From Bdellovibrionota bacterium (GTDB taxonomy: Bacteria > Bdellovibrionota > Bdellovibrionia > Bdellovibrionales > JAMPXM01): DNA of 54,515 nucleotides. The position numbers were made by a program, and so were the translations under genes. A model generated the notes under the pieces. That model saw only the letters and a program-made list of their open reading frames with translations, was not told the DNA's origin and did not search any database. Below are positions 12,020 through 17,661 of the stretch, in pieces (within the stretch, counting starts at the first letter, position 1; every line of letters starts with the position of its first letter). Location of the stretch: the NCBI GenBank assembly GCA_963170185.1, contig CAUJGS010000091.1, positions 1 through 54,515 of the forward strand. Direction: 5' to 3'.

Positions 12020-12052
12020 AAAAAAGCCGCTCAGTTCGAGCGGCTTTTTTTT
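12020..12052 (+). terminator. Terminator after oppF
   Basis: A 7-bp GC-rich stem (GCCGCTC / GAGCGGC) with a 5-base loop is extended by an A run on the left and a run of eight T on the right. The A/T symmetry lets it work in both directions, so it may also end the convergent metalloprotease transcript. Confidence 0.9.
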
Positions 12053-12095: not shown

Positions 12096-13031
12096 TTACA
12101 GAATTAGCTTCTTAAACTCGGCAAAACGTTTGGCCCGAGCTGCTTGTGTGTTCTGCACGCCCTTCTTCGCCATCTTCGCATAATCCTTCTTCAACCACGC
12201 GACACGCTCGGCGCTTGCCGGGTGCCGTGACGACTGATCCGCCTTAAGAGACTGAGTGAACGCGATGTAGTCACCTGGGAAGTAACCCGCACGATAAACC
12301 GCCAGCAAGGCGCCTCGATCCGCAACCTTCTCTTGGCTTCGGGAAAATGGATTCTGGAAGAAGTTTTCGTACGCTTTCGCAATCAAGCCAGAAACCGCAT
12401 CAGTCGCCTCGGACTCAAGCACCCCATCAACAGTGTCGTCGCCCGTGTCTATTCCCACACCGGCTTCTTTAGCCAAGGACATTCCGCCCTCTGCCGCCTT
12501 GGAAACACCCTTCTTCAGGGCCGCATTCTCGATCTCCGCCAAACCATCTTGGCAAACCACGTGAGTCGCCTCATGAGCCAAAAGGGCCGCAAGCTGATCT
12601 TCCGACTTGATGTCTTTTAACATGCCGGTCGACACGTAGACGTAACCACCCGGGAATGACATCGCGATCTTTTCATCGGTCTTCAAAGCCGCAAAACGAA
12701 AGCCCTCGGCCGGAAGCAGTTTTTCTTTCCCGCCACCGCACTTCACATTTTTAGGTCCACTGTCCAAGTGCATCGCCACATATTGGCCGACCTTATTGAG
12801 ATAGCTGATGACACGATCATCTTCGACGAGAGGATATTTCTCGACCAAGGCCACCGACATATCACGGCCGATTTGCACGACCTGTTTTGGATCAAGGTCG
12901 GCTTTCGCTAGCGCCATCTCGTCATCGCCAACAACCTCTCCCGCCGTTGACGTAACATCTTTCATTGTTTGGCAGCTCGCCATTGCGAAACCGATCATCG
13001 TCAACACAACAACTTTAAATTGGATTTTCAT
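12096..13031 (-). CDS. M48-family metalloprotease lipoprotein
   Basis: A zinc-dependent endopeptidase of the BepA/LoiP group, which handles quality control of outer-membrane proteins. I start at the ATG at 13031 (311 residues) because AAAGG lies 8 bases before it; an ATG seven codons upstream touches the previous stop (TGATG) but has no ribosome site. The signal peptide ends GFAMASCQ with lipobox MASC. The zinc motif is LLAHEATHVV, and the third ligand is likely the Glu of SRSQEKVADRGALL. The C-terminus carries SSRHPASAERVAWL, usual for M48 proteins. It is last in a minus-strand run with an SH3 protein, an adenylate cyclase and a response regulator. Confidence 0.85.
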   Translation of the reverse strand: MKIQFKVVVLTMIGFAMASCQTMKDVTSTAGEVVGDDEMALAKADLDPKQVVQIGRDMSVALVEKYPLVEDDRVISYLNKVGQYVAMHLDSGPKNVKCGGGKEKLLPAEGFRFAALKTDEKIAMSFPGGYVYVSTGMLKDIKSEDQLAALLAHEATHVVCQDGLAEIENAALKKGVSKAAEGGMSLAKEAGVGIDTGDDTVDGVLESEATDAVSGLIAKAYENFFQNPFSRSQEKVADRGALLAVYRAGYFPGDYIAFTQSLKADQSSRHPASAERVAWLKKDYAKMAKKGVQNTQAARAKRFAEFKKLIL

Positions 13032-13051
13032 GTCCCAACCTTTTTTATTCA

Positions 13052-13702
13052 TCAGCGAATCAAGCGGCTACGAAGGCCGCCCTCTTTCATGAAGTTCGCG
13101 ATATCGGTTTCTGTGACTTTCGTCGACTCGATCTTCTCAAGTGTCGCCGCAGACTTCCCTTTAAACTTTCCAACGGCCGCCTCGGCATCTGCTTGCACGT
13201 CGTCAGCTTCGTCCGTCAGGTCGTCAGTCGCTGCTTGCATCTTACCTTTCGCAACAGCGCCAACAGATGCGGTAAGTCCCTTTGAAGACGGCGTGGCTGC
13301 TGATGCGGCTTGCACAGAGTCGCCACTGAATCCCTTTGCGACACCACCCATCGACGCCGCGATTGTCGACTTTGTGTTGCCGCCAGCTTTAGGAGCCGAC
13401 TTTGTCGCCCCGATTGCAGCAGCAACATCTTTGTTGCGCGTGATTGAGCCAGAAAGGATCCAACCTTTTACACTCGGATCTTCCACCGACTCCACCCGAG
13501 ACATGGTGCCCTTGGTCTCTAAGACCTTCACTGCGGTTCCAGCCGACAGCGTCTTGATTGTCTTGGCGCTCAGCAAAGCACTTGAGCTCTTAAGAGGCGT
13601 GTCTGACGCCACCGTTACGGTTTCCGCCGACGCCAAAGACACCCAGCATGTCGCAACCATGGCCAATGTGGACCGGAGCAACTTCATCTTACTTTTCGTC
13701 AT
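13052..13702 (-). CDS. Exported SH3-domain-like protein
   Basis: A 216-residue periplasmic protein. The signal peptide (MKLLRSTLAMVATCWVSLASA) is cleaved before ETVTV. Residues about 30-90 form a bacterial SH3 (SH3_3-like) domain with SAGTAVKVLETKGTMSRVE and KGWILSGSI. The remaining 120 residues are Ala/Ser/Lys-rich and low in complexity, probably disordered or a linker. The chosen ATG overlaps the cyclase gene by 14 bases and has GGGAG upstream; a second ATG five codons in would remove the overlap. Bacterial SH3 domains often bind peptidoglycan; the role here is not known. Confidence 0.7.
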   Translation of the reverse strand: MTKSKMKLLRSTLAMVATCWVSLASAETVTVASDTPLKSSSALLSAKTIKTLSAGTAVKVLETKGTMSRVESVEDPSVKGWILSGSITRNKDVAAAIGATKSAPKAGGNTKSTIAASMGGVAKGFSGDSVQAASAATPSSKGLTASVGAVAKGKMQAATDDLTDEADDVQADAEAAVGKFKGKSAATLEKIESTKVTETDIANFMKEGGLRSRLIR

Positions 13703-15761
13703 GATGCCAAACTCCCATTTTCAACTGCTTAAGTTCACCGTGTTTCAAGGCTGCTTGGCAACGTTCCAGCATCACTCCAGCCGGTGGAACATCGAGGACC
13801 TGGCCAAAAGCCCGGCCAGCGTTTTCCCAATCTCCCTTTAAGTACAAAGTGAACGCCTTTCGGTATCCCTCAATCTTTTCTGCCGAGATTCCCGCGGTGG
13901 ACGAGTAGACCGTCACCGGAGTCGAGCGACCCTTTACCGCCACTTGGTCGACAAGATAAATCTCAGGAGAGCCCTTCATGCCTGCAGCCTGAATGGCTTC
14001 CTCACTCATCAGCAAACAAAGTCCGTACTGCTTTCCCAACCCCTCAAGGCGTGAAGCCAAATTCACAGAGTCGCCAACAGCCGTGTAGTTGTATCGAGAG
14101 TGCGAACCTATGTTCCCACAAATAGCTGGTCCGACATGTAGCCCGACTCGCGAAACAAAGAGATCACGATCAAAGCCGTACTTTTCCCGAGCCTTCTGAT
14201 TGAATCGGTCGACGGCACTTTGATACTCCATCGCTGCCCGGAATGCTTGCTGGGCATATGGCCGCTCTCCGCTAATAGGTGCGCCCCACAGCGCCATGAT
14301 CGCATCACCAATAAATTTGTCGACATAACCATCGTGCTTGAAAACCAAGTCCACGCACTCATCGAGATAGAGATTGAGAATCTCCACAAGTTTGTCGGCA
14401 TCGGTCGCTTCCGCTAACGACGTAAACCCAGAAAGGTCTGAAAACATGATCGCAATCTCGCGGCGTTCACCAAATCGAGTCAGACTCAGCTTCCCCGACC
14501 GAATCAACTGCACCATCGATTCGGACATCGAGTTTTTTATCGACTGAATGAACCGCTCGCGTTCGCGCCATTCGGTTTGGAAACGATAAGAAAGAAATGC
14601 GATGGCAAGCCCGCCATACGCCACGATAAACGGCAGCGGATTAAACCACCGCCCAGCCAGCCAAATCAGATAACTGAGCAGCGGAAGTGCCACGATCACA
14701 GTCAAAAAACTTCCCAGGAGGGCAGGTCGAGGACTGGCCGGTCGGAATACGATCCACGCTATCCAGAATCCAACCACCATTGAAATTGCAAACAGCGCCC
14801 ACATGGGCGTCACTCGCACCCGTTCGCCGTGAATCAAGTTCAGCGCATGAGTCGCATGCACGTAAACACCGGGTGCACGCTCGTCGGTTGGAAGTGGACG
14901 CAAGTCGTAGAGCCCCGCCGCCGCGACTCCGAGAATCCAATGCTTCGACGAAAGTGCAGACTTCGTTGCTTCCACACTGTCATCGCCCTTCTCACCGTGC
15001 GACTCCACACGGTACACACGAAAGAGATCGACGATGTCGACGACCTCAAGGCTGTCCTTTTCGTAGAACCGCAGAAGCGTCGATCTTGGCCGACCGATAG
15101 GCAAAGTGAGATCTTCGTTCACATCGACGCGATCTCGCCCGAGCACTGCGGCCTCACCCAACGACGGATATTTTAACCCATCTGTTCCTTCAAAGACTCG
15201 CAGCACGCGGCGATAAACCCCGTCCTCCTCCAATGGAATATTGACGGCGCCAAAGGTCAGCTTGTTTGTGAGATCACCCAGAATTGTGGGGTTCGGCTTC
15301 TGAAAGGCATTTGCCGTGGGCGCAGGAAAAACCACGCGTGCATCTGAGTTTTGCTCGAGGAAGCCACGAATCGCAGAATGGAAACTTTCGTCATCGGCTT
15401 TCCCGTAAACTGATGGAGTGTCATACAGCAGGTCGAAGGTCACAGACTTGGCCTTCAGTTTTGAGGCCATCTCCAAAAACGGACCGTACACTTCGCGAGG
15501 CCAAGGCCATCCAAGCTTCAGATCTGGATTGTCCCGAAACTCATCGATCGAGCGCTGAGTGATCGCAACAATCACAACGTCTTTCCCGGCCGGCTGGGCG
15601 GTCACCCGCTGCCAAAAATCATATAGCGGCCAGCCAACTCGCTCAAACGAGCCGCGCGACACGCGTGTCGCCAGCAAGACGGATAAACCGATGACCAAAC
15701 ACGCAACGACAAGGCTCTTCAGCCTTCCAGGAACTGAAAAGAATTTTCTGACGAAGTCCAT
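13689..15761 (-). CDS. CHASE2-domain adenylate cyclase (class III)
   Basis: A 690-residue membrane sensor. One helix near residues 15-33 is followed by a large extracytoplasmic CHASE2 domain (about 40-300; WPLYDFWQRV, DVVIVAITQRSIDEF, WPWPREVYGPFLE, VYVHATHALNLI), then three helices (about 312-395) and a cytoplasmic catalytic domain (about 430-610). Metal-binding Asp residues are in IMFSDLSGFTSLAE and FIGDAIMALWG. The Lys of DKFIGD and the Thr/Asp of YTAVGDSVNLASRLE match adenylate rather than guanylate cyclases. It should turn ATP into cAMP in response to an unknown periplasmic cue. It starts 25 bases after the response regulator stop and overlaps the SH3 gene. Confidence 0.9.
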   Translation of the reverse strand: MDFVRKFFSVPGRLKSLVVACLVIGLSVLLATRVSRGSFERVGWPLYDFWQRVTAQPAGKDVVIVAITQRSIDEFRDNPDLKLGWPWPREVYGPFLEMASKLKAKSVTFDLLYDTPSVYGKADDESFHSAIRGFLEQNSDARVVFPAPTANAFQKPNPTILGDLTNKLTFGAVNIPLEEDGVYRRVLRVFEGTDGLKYPSLGEAAVLGRDRVDVNEDLTLPIGRPRSTLLRFYEKDSLEVVDIVDLFRVYRVESHGEKGDDSVEATKSALSSKHWILGVAAAGLYDLRPLPTDERAPGVYVHATHALNLIHGERVRVTPMWALFAISMVVGFWIAWIVFRPASPRPALLGSFLTVIVALPLLSYLIWLAGRWFNPLPFIVAYGGLAIAFLSYRFQTEWRERERFIQSIKNSMSESMVQLIRSGKLSLTRFGERREIAIMFSDLSGFTSLAEATDADKLVEILNLYLDECVDLVFKHDGYVDKFIGDAIMALWGAPISGERPYAQQAFRAAMEYQSAVDRFNQKAREKYGFDRDLFVSRVGLHVGPAICGNIGSHSRYNYTAVGDSVNLASRLEGLGKQYGLCLLMSEEAIQAAGMKGSPEIYLVDQVAVKGRSTPVTVYSSTAGISAEKIEGYRKAFTLYLKGDWENAGRAFGQVLDVPPAGVMLERCQAALKHGELKQLKMGVWHHDEK

Positions 15762-15786
15762 CTCGTCTCTTTCATCTTTGTTGGAG

Positions 15787-16284
15787 CTATTCGTGACTCA
15801 GCTTTAGCAACGTCCGTACAGTCTTTTTTACGTTATCTATATCAAACGGCTTTTTAATATAGTCGTCCGCACCGGCCTCGAAGCCACGTTTGATATCAAA
15901 CTCCGACGTTTTCCCGCTGATAAAAACGAGAGGGATCTCTCGGAGTGAGTCATGCTCTTTCAAGAGTTTTGCCAGCTCGATTCCGTTGATCCAAGGAAGA
16001 CCGACATCAAGTAGAATCAAATCGACCGACATGTCGCCTAGCGCATCGCCAAGCTGTGTGCCGTCCGCGGCCGACCTGACATCGAACCCATCGCTTTCAA
16101 GAATGCGCTTCAGCGCCGCCCGCATCGTATCGTCGTCCTCGACAACCAATATTGATCGGCGCTTTTTCTTTTCTTTGAGTTCGCGAAGTGATCGAAGATC
16201 GACAACATCGCCGGAAGCCATTCGCTCGCGCGCGAGCTTTTCAATCTTGGCAACCAAGTCTTTGGCATCGATCTTTTTCGACAC
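15787..16284 (-). CDS. Single-domain response regulator with N-terminal extension
   Basis: A 165-residue receiver protein. The first 42 residues are a charged helical extension ending KEKKKRRS. The receiver follows: acidic pocket VVEDDD, phosphoacceptor Asp in LILLDVGLPWING, switch Ser in VFISGKTSE, and conserved Lys in YIKKPF. There is no output domain, so it must act through a partner. The cyclase gene begins 25 bases downstream, which suggests the regulator may influence cAMP output; that link is inferred. No histidine kinase is seen nearby. Confidence 0.88.
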   Translation of the reverse strand: MSKKIDAKDLVAKIEKLARERMASGDVVDLRSLRELKEKKKRRSILVVEDDDTMRAALKRILESDGFDVRSAADGTQLGDALGDMSVDLILLDVGLPWINGIELAKLLKEHDSLREIPLVFISGKTSEFDIKRGFEAGADDYIKKPFDIDNVKKTVRTLLKLSHE

Positions 16285-16310
16285 TTATCTTCCTCGCAGT
16301 TTCAAGACGA

Positions 16311-17246
16311 TTACGAGGGGTTGGCTTCTAACCAACGTTCGGCATCGATCGCCGCCATACAACCACTGCCCGCCGCCGTGATCGCCTGACGATAGTGATG
16401 ATCTTGTACGTCGCCACACGCAAAAACACCTTCGATGTCTGTTTTTGAAGAGTGCGGCTTCGTGACCAGGTAGCCGGTTTCGTCGGTCTTCAACTGACCT
16501 TCAAGAACTTTGGTGTTTGGTTCGTGTCCAATCGCCAAAAAGAATCCCTGAATTGGAAGTGTCTTTTTCTCCCCAGTGACCGTGTTTGTGATCTTCGCTC
16601 CGGTCACAAACTTATCGCCGATGACTTCGTCCACAACCGTGTTCCAAAGTACTTCGATCTTTGGATTCTTCAGCGCCTTGTCGGCCATGATCTTAGAAGC
16701 GCGGAAGCTATCGCGGCGATGAATGATGAAAACTTTTTTTGCAAATCGTGTGAGGAACGTTGCTTCCTCCATTGCCGTGTCGCCGCCACCAATGACAGCC
16801 ACGTCCATATCGCGGAAGAACGCACCGTCGCACGTCGCGCAAGCCGAGACACCCTTGTTCGCAAAGGTCTTTTCCGAAGGAAGACCAAGATACTTCGCCT
16901 TCGCACCTGTGGCGATGATGACGGTCTTGGTGAGATACATGGTATCGCCAACCCAAACTTTAAATGGACGCTGTTTGAGATCGACCTTGGTCACATTCTT
17001 GCGCTGGAAACGTGTACCGAATCTCTCGGCTTGTTTGCGCATGTGTTCCATCAACTCAGGACCTGTGACGCCTTCTGGAAAACCGGGGAAGTTTTCAACT
17101 TCTGTAGTGATCATCAACTGACCACCGGCCTCTTCGCCTTCGAACATCAAGGGCTTCAAAAGCGCACGCGATGTGTAGATTGCAGCCGTGTAGCCGGCGG
17201 GACCCGAACCGATAATAATGACGTTTTCAATATTGGATTGACTCAT
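16311..17246 (-). CDS. trxB: Thioredoxin reductase
   Basis: A 311-residue FAD/NADPH enzyme that reduces thioredoxin, of typical length. The FAD motif is [17 protein letters not shown], the redox-active pair is CATC in [11 protein letters not shown], the NADPH site is [17 protein letters not shown], and the C-terminal FAD contact is [27 protein letters not shown]. The same frame is open upstream, but family alignment places the start at the ATG of [12 protein letters not shown]; its ribosome site is weak. It is transcribed away from the ferredoxin gene across a 106-base shared upstream region. It lies 26 bases upstream of the response regulator and might be cotranscribed with it. Confidence 0.95.
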
Positions 17247-17352
17247 GCGTATAAGGATAAACTCGTGAAATCCCGAGGTCCAACCATAGCCTTCTACGGC
17301 GCAATGCGATACCCTACGTCCGACAGCCATCACCTGAAAAAGGGAGACCCTT

Positions 17353-17661
17353 CTGAGCGGTCGCATCCGTTTTAAAAAAAGCGAACTACAAAGCAAGTAC
17401 GGTGAACTTTCCGTCGACGGTGAACAAAGCCTGATGACGCATCTCCTGAACGCCGGCCTTCCCGTCGCCTCCAGCTGTCGCGGAGACGGTGTGTGCGCAA
17501 AATGTCGGCTGCATGTTCTCCCCCTTGAAGAGAACGCCACCTCCCCGATCGAGGCACTTGAAAAGCGCCTGCTGGCCAAGACCAAGGCCGAGGCCGACGA
17601 GCGCATTTCCTGTCAGACCAAAGTCTTGGGGCTCATCGAAGTCGATGCCGACTACTGGTAA
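17353..17661 (+). CDS. [2Fe-2S] ferredoxin with probable CTG start
   Basis: A 102-residue electron carrier. The cluster ligands are C42, C48 and C51 ([10 protein letters not shown]) and C87 (ISCQ), the C-x5-C-x2-C spacing of bacterial [2Fe-2S] domains. The first ATG in frame (17434) would remove the N-terminal beta strands ([19 protein letters not shown]) that the fold needs. An in-frame TGA at 17335 bounds the start, and between it and the fold there is no ATG, GTG or TTG. A CTG at 17353 lies 6 bases after AAGGGAG, so I propose CTG as start. It is divergent from trxB. Partner proteins are unknown. Confidence 0.82.

Follow-up and report, generated by a model that had tools for sequence, protein, structure and literature searches.

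The locus examined here raises the question of whether four closely spaced genes, encoding a receiver, a CHASE2 protein with a cyclase domain, an SH3-like protein and a metalloprotease, form one signalling unit and, if not, which of them belong together. The window, that is, the whole stretch of DNA that was analysed, comprises 54,515 nucleotides of a Bdellovibrionota genome assembly, and the features discussed are shown in Table 1. The first-pass annotation had described four minus-strand genes at 12096-16284, and the ORF coordinates agree: spacings between the receiver, cyclase, adaptor and M48 genes are 25, -14 and then 20 bases with the M48 start at ATG 13031, the last value becoming -1 if the longest M48 ORF (start 13052) is taken. 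Its labels for the receiver, the CHASE2 adenylate cyclase and the M48 protease also agree with the Pfam matches (Response_reg 1e-28; CHASE2 1.5e-33 and Guanylate_cyc 8.6e-21; and Peptidase_M48, PF01435, 1.9e-18). Beyond the terminator-like stem lies an opp operon that is convergent with the cluster, and a promoter scan yielded 5 sigma-70-like matches versus 2.9 expected in shuffles. On the other side of the cluster, the TIGR01292 match to the trxB ORF begins at residue 128, and the true trxB start is probably inside this ORF.

Table 1. Features of the cluster and its flanks, with positions in the window
Feature	Positions	Strand	Basis or remark
Intrinsic-terminator-like stem, cluster end	12020-12050	either	usable also by the convergent opp operon
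M48 zinc protease, predicted lipoprotein	12096-13031	minus	PF01435, lipobox MASC; longest ORF to 13052, 318 aa
HEATH = HExxH active site	12561-12575	minus	M48 sequence
SH3-like/tail adaptor, 216 aa, predicted exported	13052-13702	minus	5' end overlaps the cyclase gene by 14 bases
Adaptor C-terminal tail, conserved Phe (residue 204)	13055-13147	minus	proposed M48 docking segment
Adaptor SH3-like domain, residues about 28-90	13433-13621	minus	AF2 block means about 85-96 over residues 21-90
CHASE2 adenylate cyclase (predicted), 690 aa	13689-15761	minus	Pfam CHASE2 + Guanylate_cyc
Class III cyclase domain, residues 434-617	13911-14462	minus	PF00211, 8.6e-21
CHASE2 sensor domain, residues 28-333	14763-15680	minus	PF05226, 1.5e-33, 116.9 bits vs cut-off 26.3
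Receiver, 165 aa, GTG start	15787-16284	minus	ORF list; Response_reg 1e-28
trxB ORF	16311-17606	minus	TIGR01292, 430 bits

The receiver looks like an old and separate neighbour of the other three genes that belongs with trxB. Within the order, 113 of 118 genomes contained a receiver homolog, and the receiver adjoined trxB in all 15 genomes in which its locus was read (mostly best receiver matches, a non-random choice); a cyclase gene was found behind it in three of these 15 (the window, G011 and G039) and was lacking in 12. The trio of cyclase, adaptor and M48 genes is on a separate contig from the receiver in G022 and located away from it in G018 and G027, and in G033 the receiver directly abuts the opp operon. 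The sequence histories conflict as well. A tree of trxB and the receiver grouped the window with G011, G042 and G017 (98/97), with G022 outside. The identities between G011 and G022 were 87/63/89% for cyclase/adaptor/M48 and 75/79% for receiver/trxB, and those between the window and G011 were 68/43/76% and 84/89%, respectively. On the basis of these conflicting identities and trees, the three genes seem to have been moved as a block between two lineages. A signalling unit of all four genes, in which the receiver would link a phosphorelay to the cyclase, could draw on the 25-base gap in the window and on G011, which shows this order too, as does G039 as far as its contig reaches, ending within the adaptor gene. 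Set against the trxB neighbourhood, the 12 receiver loci with no cyclase behind, the trios located elsewhere and the conflicting histories, such a circuit is very improbable, and the four-gene operon was rejected as a unit because the receiver goes with trxB. Thus, the receiver, which had been counted as a member of the unit in the first-pass annotation, is a neighbour of the trio that is perhaps co-transcribed with it.

The cyclase-SH3-M48 part of the proposed gene order, without the receiver, proved to be conserved far beyond this genome. In the window the three genes are adjacent and the adaptor has a tail with a conserved Phe, the features by which a trio was recognized. When the window's phylum was searched with an M48 profile (368 genomes), 49 genomes gave a total of 57 rows, corresponding to 56 distinct places (one gene appeared twice), all of which were read. 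A CHASE2 cyclase was found together with M48 in 22 of the 56 places: 19 with the order cyclase-adaptor-M48, two divergent (L125 and L132) and one (L130) with the order adaptor-M48-porin-like ORF-cyclase and an SH3-type match just upstream of M48. In L049 the cyclase was cut by a contig end.

The M48 profile was also run against named genomes, and the best 80 of 543 loci (not a census) extended this result. Among the M48 ORFs no longer than 430 aa in these 80 (n=56), 51 had an adjoining adaptor and 35 had a CHASE2/cyclase gene within 1.5 kb. The longer ORFs of the same best 80 of 543 (n=24) comprised four with an adaptor, which seem to be members of the short type whose starts were over-called; the other 20 had neither neighbour. 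These 20 represent another M48 family (438-530 aa) and served as a control. Its length could suggest a BepA-like family, and the BepA model was the nearest in NCBIfam, but one member reached 122 bits versus a cut-off of 570 and no TPR match was found in Pfam; it proved to be a separate family. Because none of these 20 genes (best 80 of 543) had an adaptor or CHASE2 neighbour, a generic M48 background behind the linkage could be rejected. According to record titles, hosts with all three genes among the matches listed included Pseudomonadota, Nitrospirota, Acidobacteriota, Thermodesulfobacteriota, Verrucomicrobiota, Planctomycetota and Spirochaetota; with the window's phylum, the trio occurs in at least eight phyla, seven of them assigned by title and some represented by metagenome bins. 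Named isolates with the module include Undibacterium terreum (L213) and Chitiniphilus shinanonensis (L224).

We also analyzed even draws of genomes from three other clades at E 1e-65, in which 52/245, 27/239 and 43/257 genomes matched. The 87 loci read (30/55, 27/27 and 30/45 matches per clade) included three in genomes already covered by the named-genome scan. An adaptor was present beside M48 at 84 of these 87 loci, found with a profile (A6) built mostly from adaptor-linked M48 genes, and a CHASE2/cyclase sequence was present in the 1.5-kb flank at 56 (25/30, 15/27 and 16/30). Therefore, the near-constant pair is adaptor-M48, and CHASE2 is a frequent third member. Two CHASE2-M48 loci lacked an adaptor match (L193, which reaches a contig end, and L257). 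Linkage in 22/56, 35/56 (best 80 of 543) and 56/87 loci of the three collections, and in none of the 20 genes of the longer M48 family (best 80 of 543), leaves practically no room for chance neighbours or an annotation artefact, an explanation for which no evidence was found and which is refuted by this recurrence.

The arrangement of the trio varied. Among 81 loci with M48 and adaptor genes, 45 had the order CYC-SH3-M48, six had SH3-M48-CYC and two were divergent; in the remaining 28 no CHASE2 was found or the order was not set. A 4-base overlap was the commonest spacing (16/45 cyclase-adaptor and 34/81 adaptor-M48 junctions), with starts called mechanically and some large overlaps over-called. 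The 14-base overlap of the window recurs in G011, G022, G018 and G027. That the genes stay together while their order changes argues for function over shared descent alone. In addition, two fusions were identified: in L143, from the window's phylum, a single frame runs through signal, SH3, tail and M48, and L191 (Elusimicrobia per title) contains signal, tail and M48 without SH3. Neither fusion takes in the cyclase, the joins being of tail or adaptor to M48, which speaks against a relay; the DNA read around them contained no CHASE2 gene. In two sister genomes, G042 and G017 (100/99), M48 is accompanied by an exported tail protein of 91-111 aa, and both the cyclase and the SH3 part are missing, a state that would most simply have arisen by one deletion.

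In a tree of the cyclases, the trio label was clustered (7 changes versus a shuffled mean of 25.3, with 0/500 shuffles as low), a result that shows clustering and does not settle history, the tree having been built with FastTree alone and joining several long branches, and that carries a sampling bias, trio rows having come mostly via M48 and most non-trio rows via the cyclase and from the window's phylum only. The majority of rows without the adaptor-M48 pair (27/30) formed one group of larger proteins, and the other three (L026, L029 and L048, the last at a contig end) fell among the trio cyclases. Two trio-type cyclases (L261 and L260) had no M48 nearby.

The CHASE2 protein of the window has its sensor domain N-terminal to the class III catalytic domain, which is followed by a conserved C-terminal stretch, and the best PDB matches of the cyclase domain were adenylate cyclases (2.6e-26). 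The hallmarks of class III adenylate cyclases are two metal-binding Asp, a Lys and a Thr/Asp for base recognition, and a transition-state Asn/Arg pair. D442, K482, D486, T560, N567 and R571 were invariant in the 7 rows of alignment A3, the motif patterns were intact in all 46 trio cyclases, and the Lys/Thr pair of the window protein is typical of adenylate cyclases. The protein is thus a predicted adenylate cyclase that should make cAMP, and 13 cNMP-binding matches in 11 frames were identified in the same genome. Seven CHASE2 proteins had no cyclase match (L195, L198, L201, L203, L208, L227 and L230), and a degenerate cyclase was considered for them, but a profile comparison supported it with a probability of only 12%. 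Four of the seven (L195, L198, L227 and L230) were also scanned with Pfam; with these four, which have no recognizable cyclase, included, the association with CHASE2 across phyla and gene orders points to the sensor domain and not to the cAMP output.

The SH3 label given to the third protein stands in part. No Pfam family, including SH3_3 and SH3_4, matched the window adaptor, but SH3_3 matched 25 of the 34 members of adaptor alignment A7 and the predicted fold is SH3-like. The predicted parts are a signal peptide (by inspection), the SH3-like domain (strands at residues 28-83), a low-confidence linker and a C-terminal helix (198-207), and a fold search placed SH3 domains best at E 2.5e-3, with none under 0.001. 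TIGR04211 (SH3_and_anchor) scored 21.7 bits on the window protein versus a cut-off of 65 and matched 17 of the 34 A7 members in NCBIfam (best E 3.8e-11). No curated family naming the adaptor was found among the Pfam and NCBIfam matches of the window protein and the A7 members. The Phe of the tail was conserved in 20/20 rows of alignment A5 and 31/34 rows of A7. Among 164 adaptors (SH3 threshold E 1), 154 had both SH3 and tail, eight had the tail only and two had SH3 only, so that the tail was detected in 162; of the two exceptions, the tail of L128 can be seen but scores below threshold, and L351 is short and probably a broken frame. Judged from these alignments, the tail is the most constant part of the adaptor.

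It was also considered whether the SH3 end goes with CHASE2. At an SH3 threshold of 0.01, a CHASE2 neighbour was present for one of seven SH3-less adaptors versus 110 of 146 SH3-bearing ones at loci with sufficient flank or with a CHASE2 gene found (p = 0.0018, with related rows such as the sister genomes L046 and L047, the doubtful L171 counted, and 13 loci left out that lay close to the end of a contig or locus and had no CHASE2 found). A rule that the SH3 end is always accompanied by CHASE2 was not upheld, since 36 of the 146 SH3-bearing loci had no nearby CHASE2/cyclase gene; therefore, either the adaptor-M48 pair works without a linked receptor or the receptor is located elsewhere. The SH3 part was barely detectable (6.9e-05 over 38 residues) in the adaptor beside the cyclase of L207, and L357 has a cyclase near an SH3-less adaptor ORF that is perhaps a broken frame.

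With respect to the M48 protein, HExxH, the third-ligand Glu, the HP plug and an Arg were present in the window and in 34/34 rows of A6. The start at ATG 13031 gives a lipoprotein-type signal with the lipobox MASC; a loose pattern detected such a signal in 36 of 81 M48 ORFs, and thus membrane anchoring of M48 is not general. The structure model had a mean pLDDT of 79.6, and its fold was nearest to 3c37 (Q74D82), then to BepA. 3c37 is the nearest solved structure (profile 6.1e-45, fold 6.2e-10), a structural-genomics entry whose title says putative peptidase only. Versus the BepA equivalog model, the window protein scored 50.1 bits, in the M48 part only, far from the cut-off of 570. HExxH was intact in all 87 M48 ORFs of the even draws and in 79 of the 81 M48-adaptor loci. 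Active-site residues were lost in G017, in which M48 has lost zinc ligands, and in G030, a contig-end locus in which M48 lacks both HExxH and the third zinc ligand and the cyclase and adaptor are retained. Because G030 keeps these two genes beside a dead M48, cutting seems dispensable there.

That cyclase, adaptor and M48 form one functional module is well supported, and the trio probably reports envelope state to the cell interior. It is plausible, as the annotation already suggested, that a single unit both senses the state of the envelope and acts on it; the predicted cAMP-producing protein, which faces the envelope, is repeatedly linked to an SH3-like protein and to M48, and the receiver has to be left out. 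In the mechanism that we prefer, to which we assign a probability of roughly 0.5, the adaptor tail would dock on a plug-inhibited M48 whose state passes to CHASE2, which sets cAMP. M48, shut by a BepA-type HP plug, would engage a faulty envelope substrate; the tail would sit on M48 and the SH3 end would reach CHASE2 (or peptidoglycan); CHASE2 would read the state of M48 and cAMP output would change; and one or more cNMP-binding proteins of the genome may respond.

Two other readings of the trio have to be weighed against this mechanism. The adaptor and M48 might be an envelope quality-control pair that is simply co-expressed with the cyclase, so that cAMP and protease rise together with no physical relay through CHASE2. 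This would fit the 28 of 84 adaptor loci of the even draws that have no linked CHASE2 sequence in their 1.5-kb flanks, as well as fusions that join adaptor and M48 only; the association with CHASE2 in eight phyla and three gene orders, also with CHASE2 proteins that have no recognizable cyclase, and the scarcity of CHASE2 neighbours among SH3-less adaptors (1/7 vs 110/146 in the comparison above, whose rows are not independent), tell against it, and we consider it rather unlikely. A slightly smaller chance is given to regulated proteolysis, in which M48 would cut the adaptor or CHASE2 and so switch the cyclase, the protease being the switch and not the sensor. Control of receptors by periplasmic proteases is an established theme, and the active site is intact nearly everywhere (87/87 ORFs, 34/34 A6 rows and 79/81 loci). 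On the other hand, the dead M48 of G030, although one lineage at a contig end, remains beside cyclase and adaptor, and two fusions carry tail and M48 within a single frame. A widespread class of envelope receptors may be proposed, in which M48 (in places dead) would be the sensor, the adaptor would carry its state to CHASE2 and the CHASE2 outputs would be exchangeable (cyclase or unrecognized domain) while the sensing pair is kept; we offer this tentatively, as somewhat less than an even bet.

No description of a CHASE2 cyclase/adaptor/M48 grouping was found in the PMC subset, outside which most subscription papers and bioRxiv lie, in agreement with the first-pass annotation, which had not recognized the grouping. 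Three known systems share parts of it. The Burkholderia BiofilmReg operon, as described in PMC5192318, encodes a response regulator, a LysM/FecR protein, a CHASE2 histidine kinase and a DUF4136 protein. It resembles the trio in that a CHASE2 receptor is encoded together with a regulator and an exported protein that putatively binds peptidoglycan, and differs in its histidine kinase output and in having LysM/FecR in place of the SH3/tail adaptor; M48 and SH3 are not mentioned in that paper (PMC5192318), and neither FecR nor LysM matched in the five window proteins scanned. In Sinorhizobium meliloti, CyaD1/CyaD2/CyaK with NsrA and Clr also represent CHASE2 cyclase cAMP output that needs another envelope protein, but NsrA is described as an outer-membrane beta-barrel through which a plant protein is sensed, and the word protease is absent from that paper (PMC13001267). 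The E. coli proteases BepA, YcaL and LoiP share with the trio M48 the HExxH, the third ligand and the HP plug, the fold in the case of BepA, a periplasmic or outer-membrane-lipoprotein location and a role in outer-membrane quality control; the plug is reported to keep BepA closed until substrate comes (PMC7950410). In contrast, BepA has a TPR domain, which was not seen in the window M48, and SH3 is absent from the same text (PMC7950410).

The factors recognized by CHASE2 domains were described as not known in 2016 (PMC5192318). A protease-adaptor pair encoded with CHASE2 cyclases is a candidate protein input for this large receptor family. The presence of the module in named isolates makes it testable outside metagenome bins and, if the proposal is true, M48 envelope quality control would be linked to second-messenger signalling.

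A gene pair consisting of trxB (the adjoining open reading frame) and the stand-alone response-regulator receiver was conserved in order Bdellovibrionales, where the two genes were adjacent in all 15 genomes read and a receiver homolog could be identified in 113 of 118 genomes. The receiver of this pair carries an N-terminal extension of ∼40 residues.

Positions of the trxB-receiver pair and of M48 proteins lacking HExxH and the third zinc ligand
Feature	Locus	Position	Genome
trxB-receiver pair	window	15787-17606	
trxB-receiver pair	L042, L046-L048, L061-L064, L066, L173-L179, L265		
M48 without HExxH and third zinc ligand	L047	6383-7252	G017
M48 without HExxH and third zinc ligand	L049	3116-3940	G030

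The two altered M48 proteins belong to separate genera within the family of the window's organism and, judged from their residues, appear to be pseudo-proteases retained at their loci. At seven loci (L195, L198, L201, L203, L208, L227 and L230), all from Beta- or Gammaproteobacteria according to record titles, the adaptor and M48 genes adjoined a CHASE2 protein of 565-599 aa with no recognisable cyclase, whose unassigned C-terminal region is perhaps a degenerate cyclase.

Two other arrangements were observed. Two different CHASE2 cyclases flank a single adaptor-M48 pair in a Sphingomonadaceae record (by title; L238, 3618-9140), and in genome G246 (L130, 5453-9772) the M48 and CHASE2 cyclase genes are separated by an ORF of 419 aa that looks porin-like on inspection. 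In genome G039, contig C678 (L048) stops inside the adaptor and contig C17 (L150) starts just before an M48 gene; these are probably a single locus divided by assembly.

Finally, the cyclase-adaptor-M48 trio was closer in sequence between genomes G011 (L042) and G022 (L043) than were their trxB and receiver genes, which suggests that this trio was transferred as a block.
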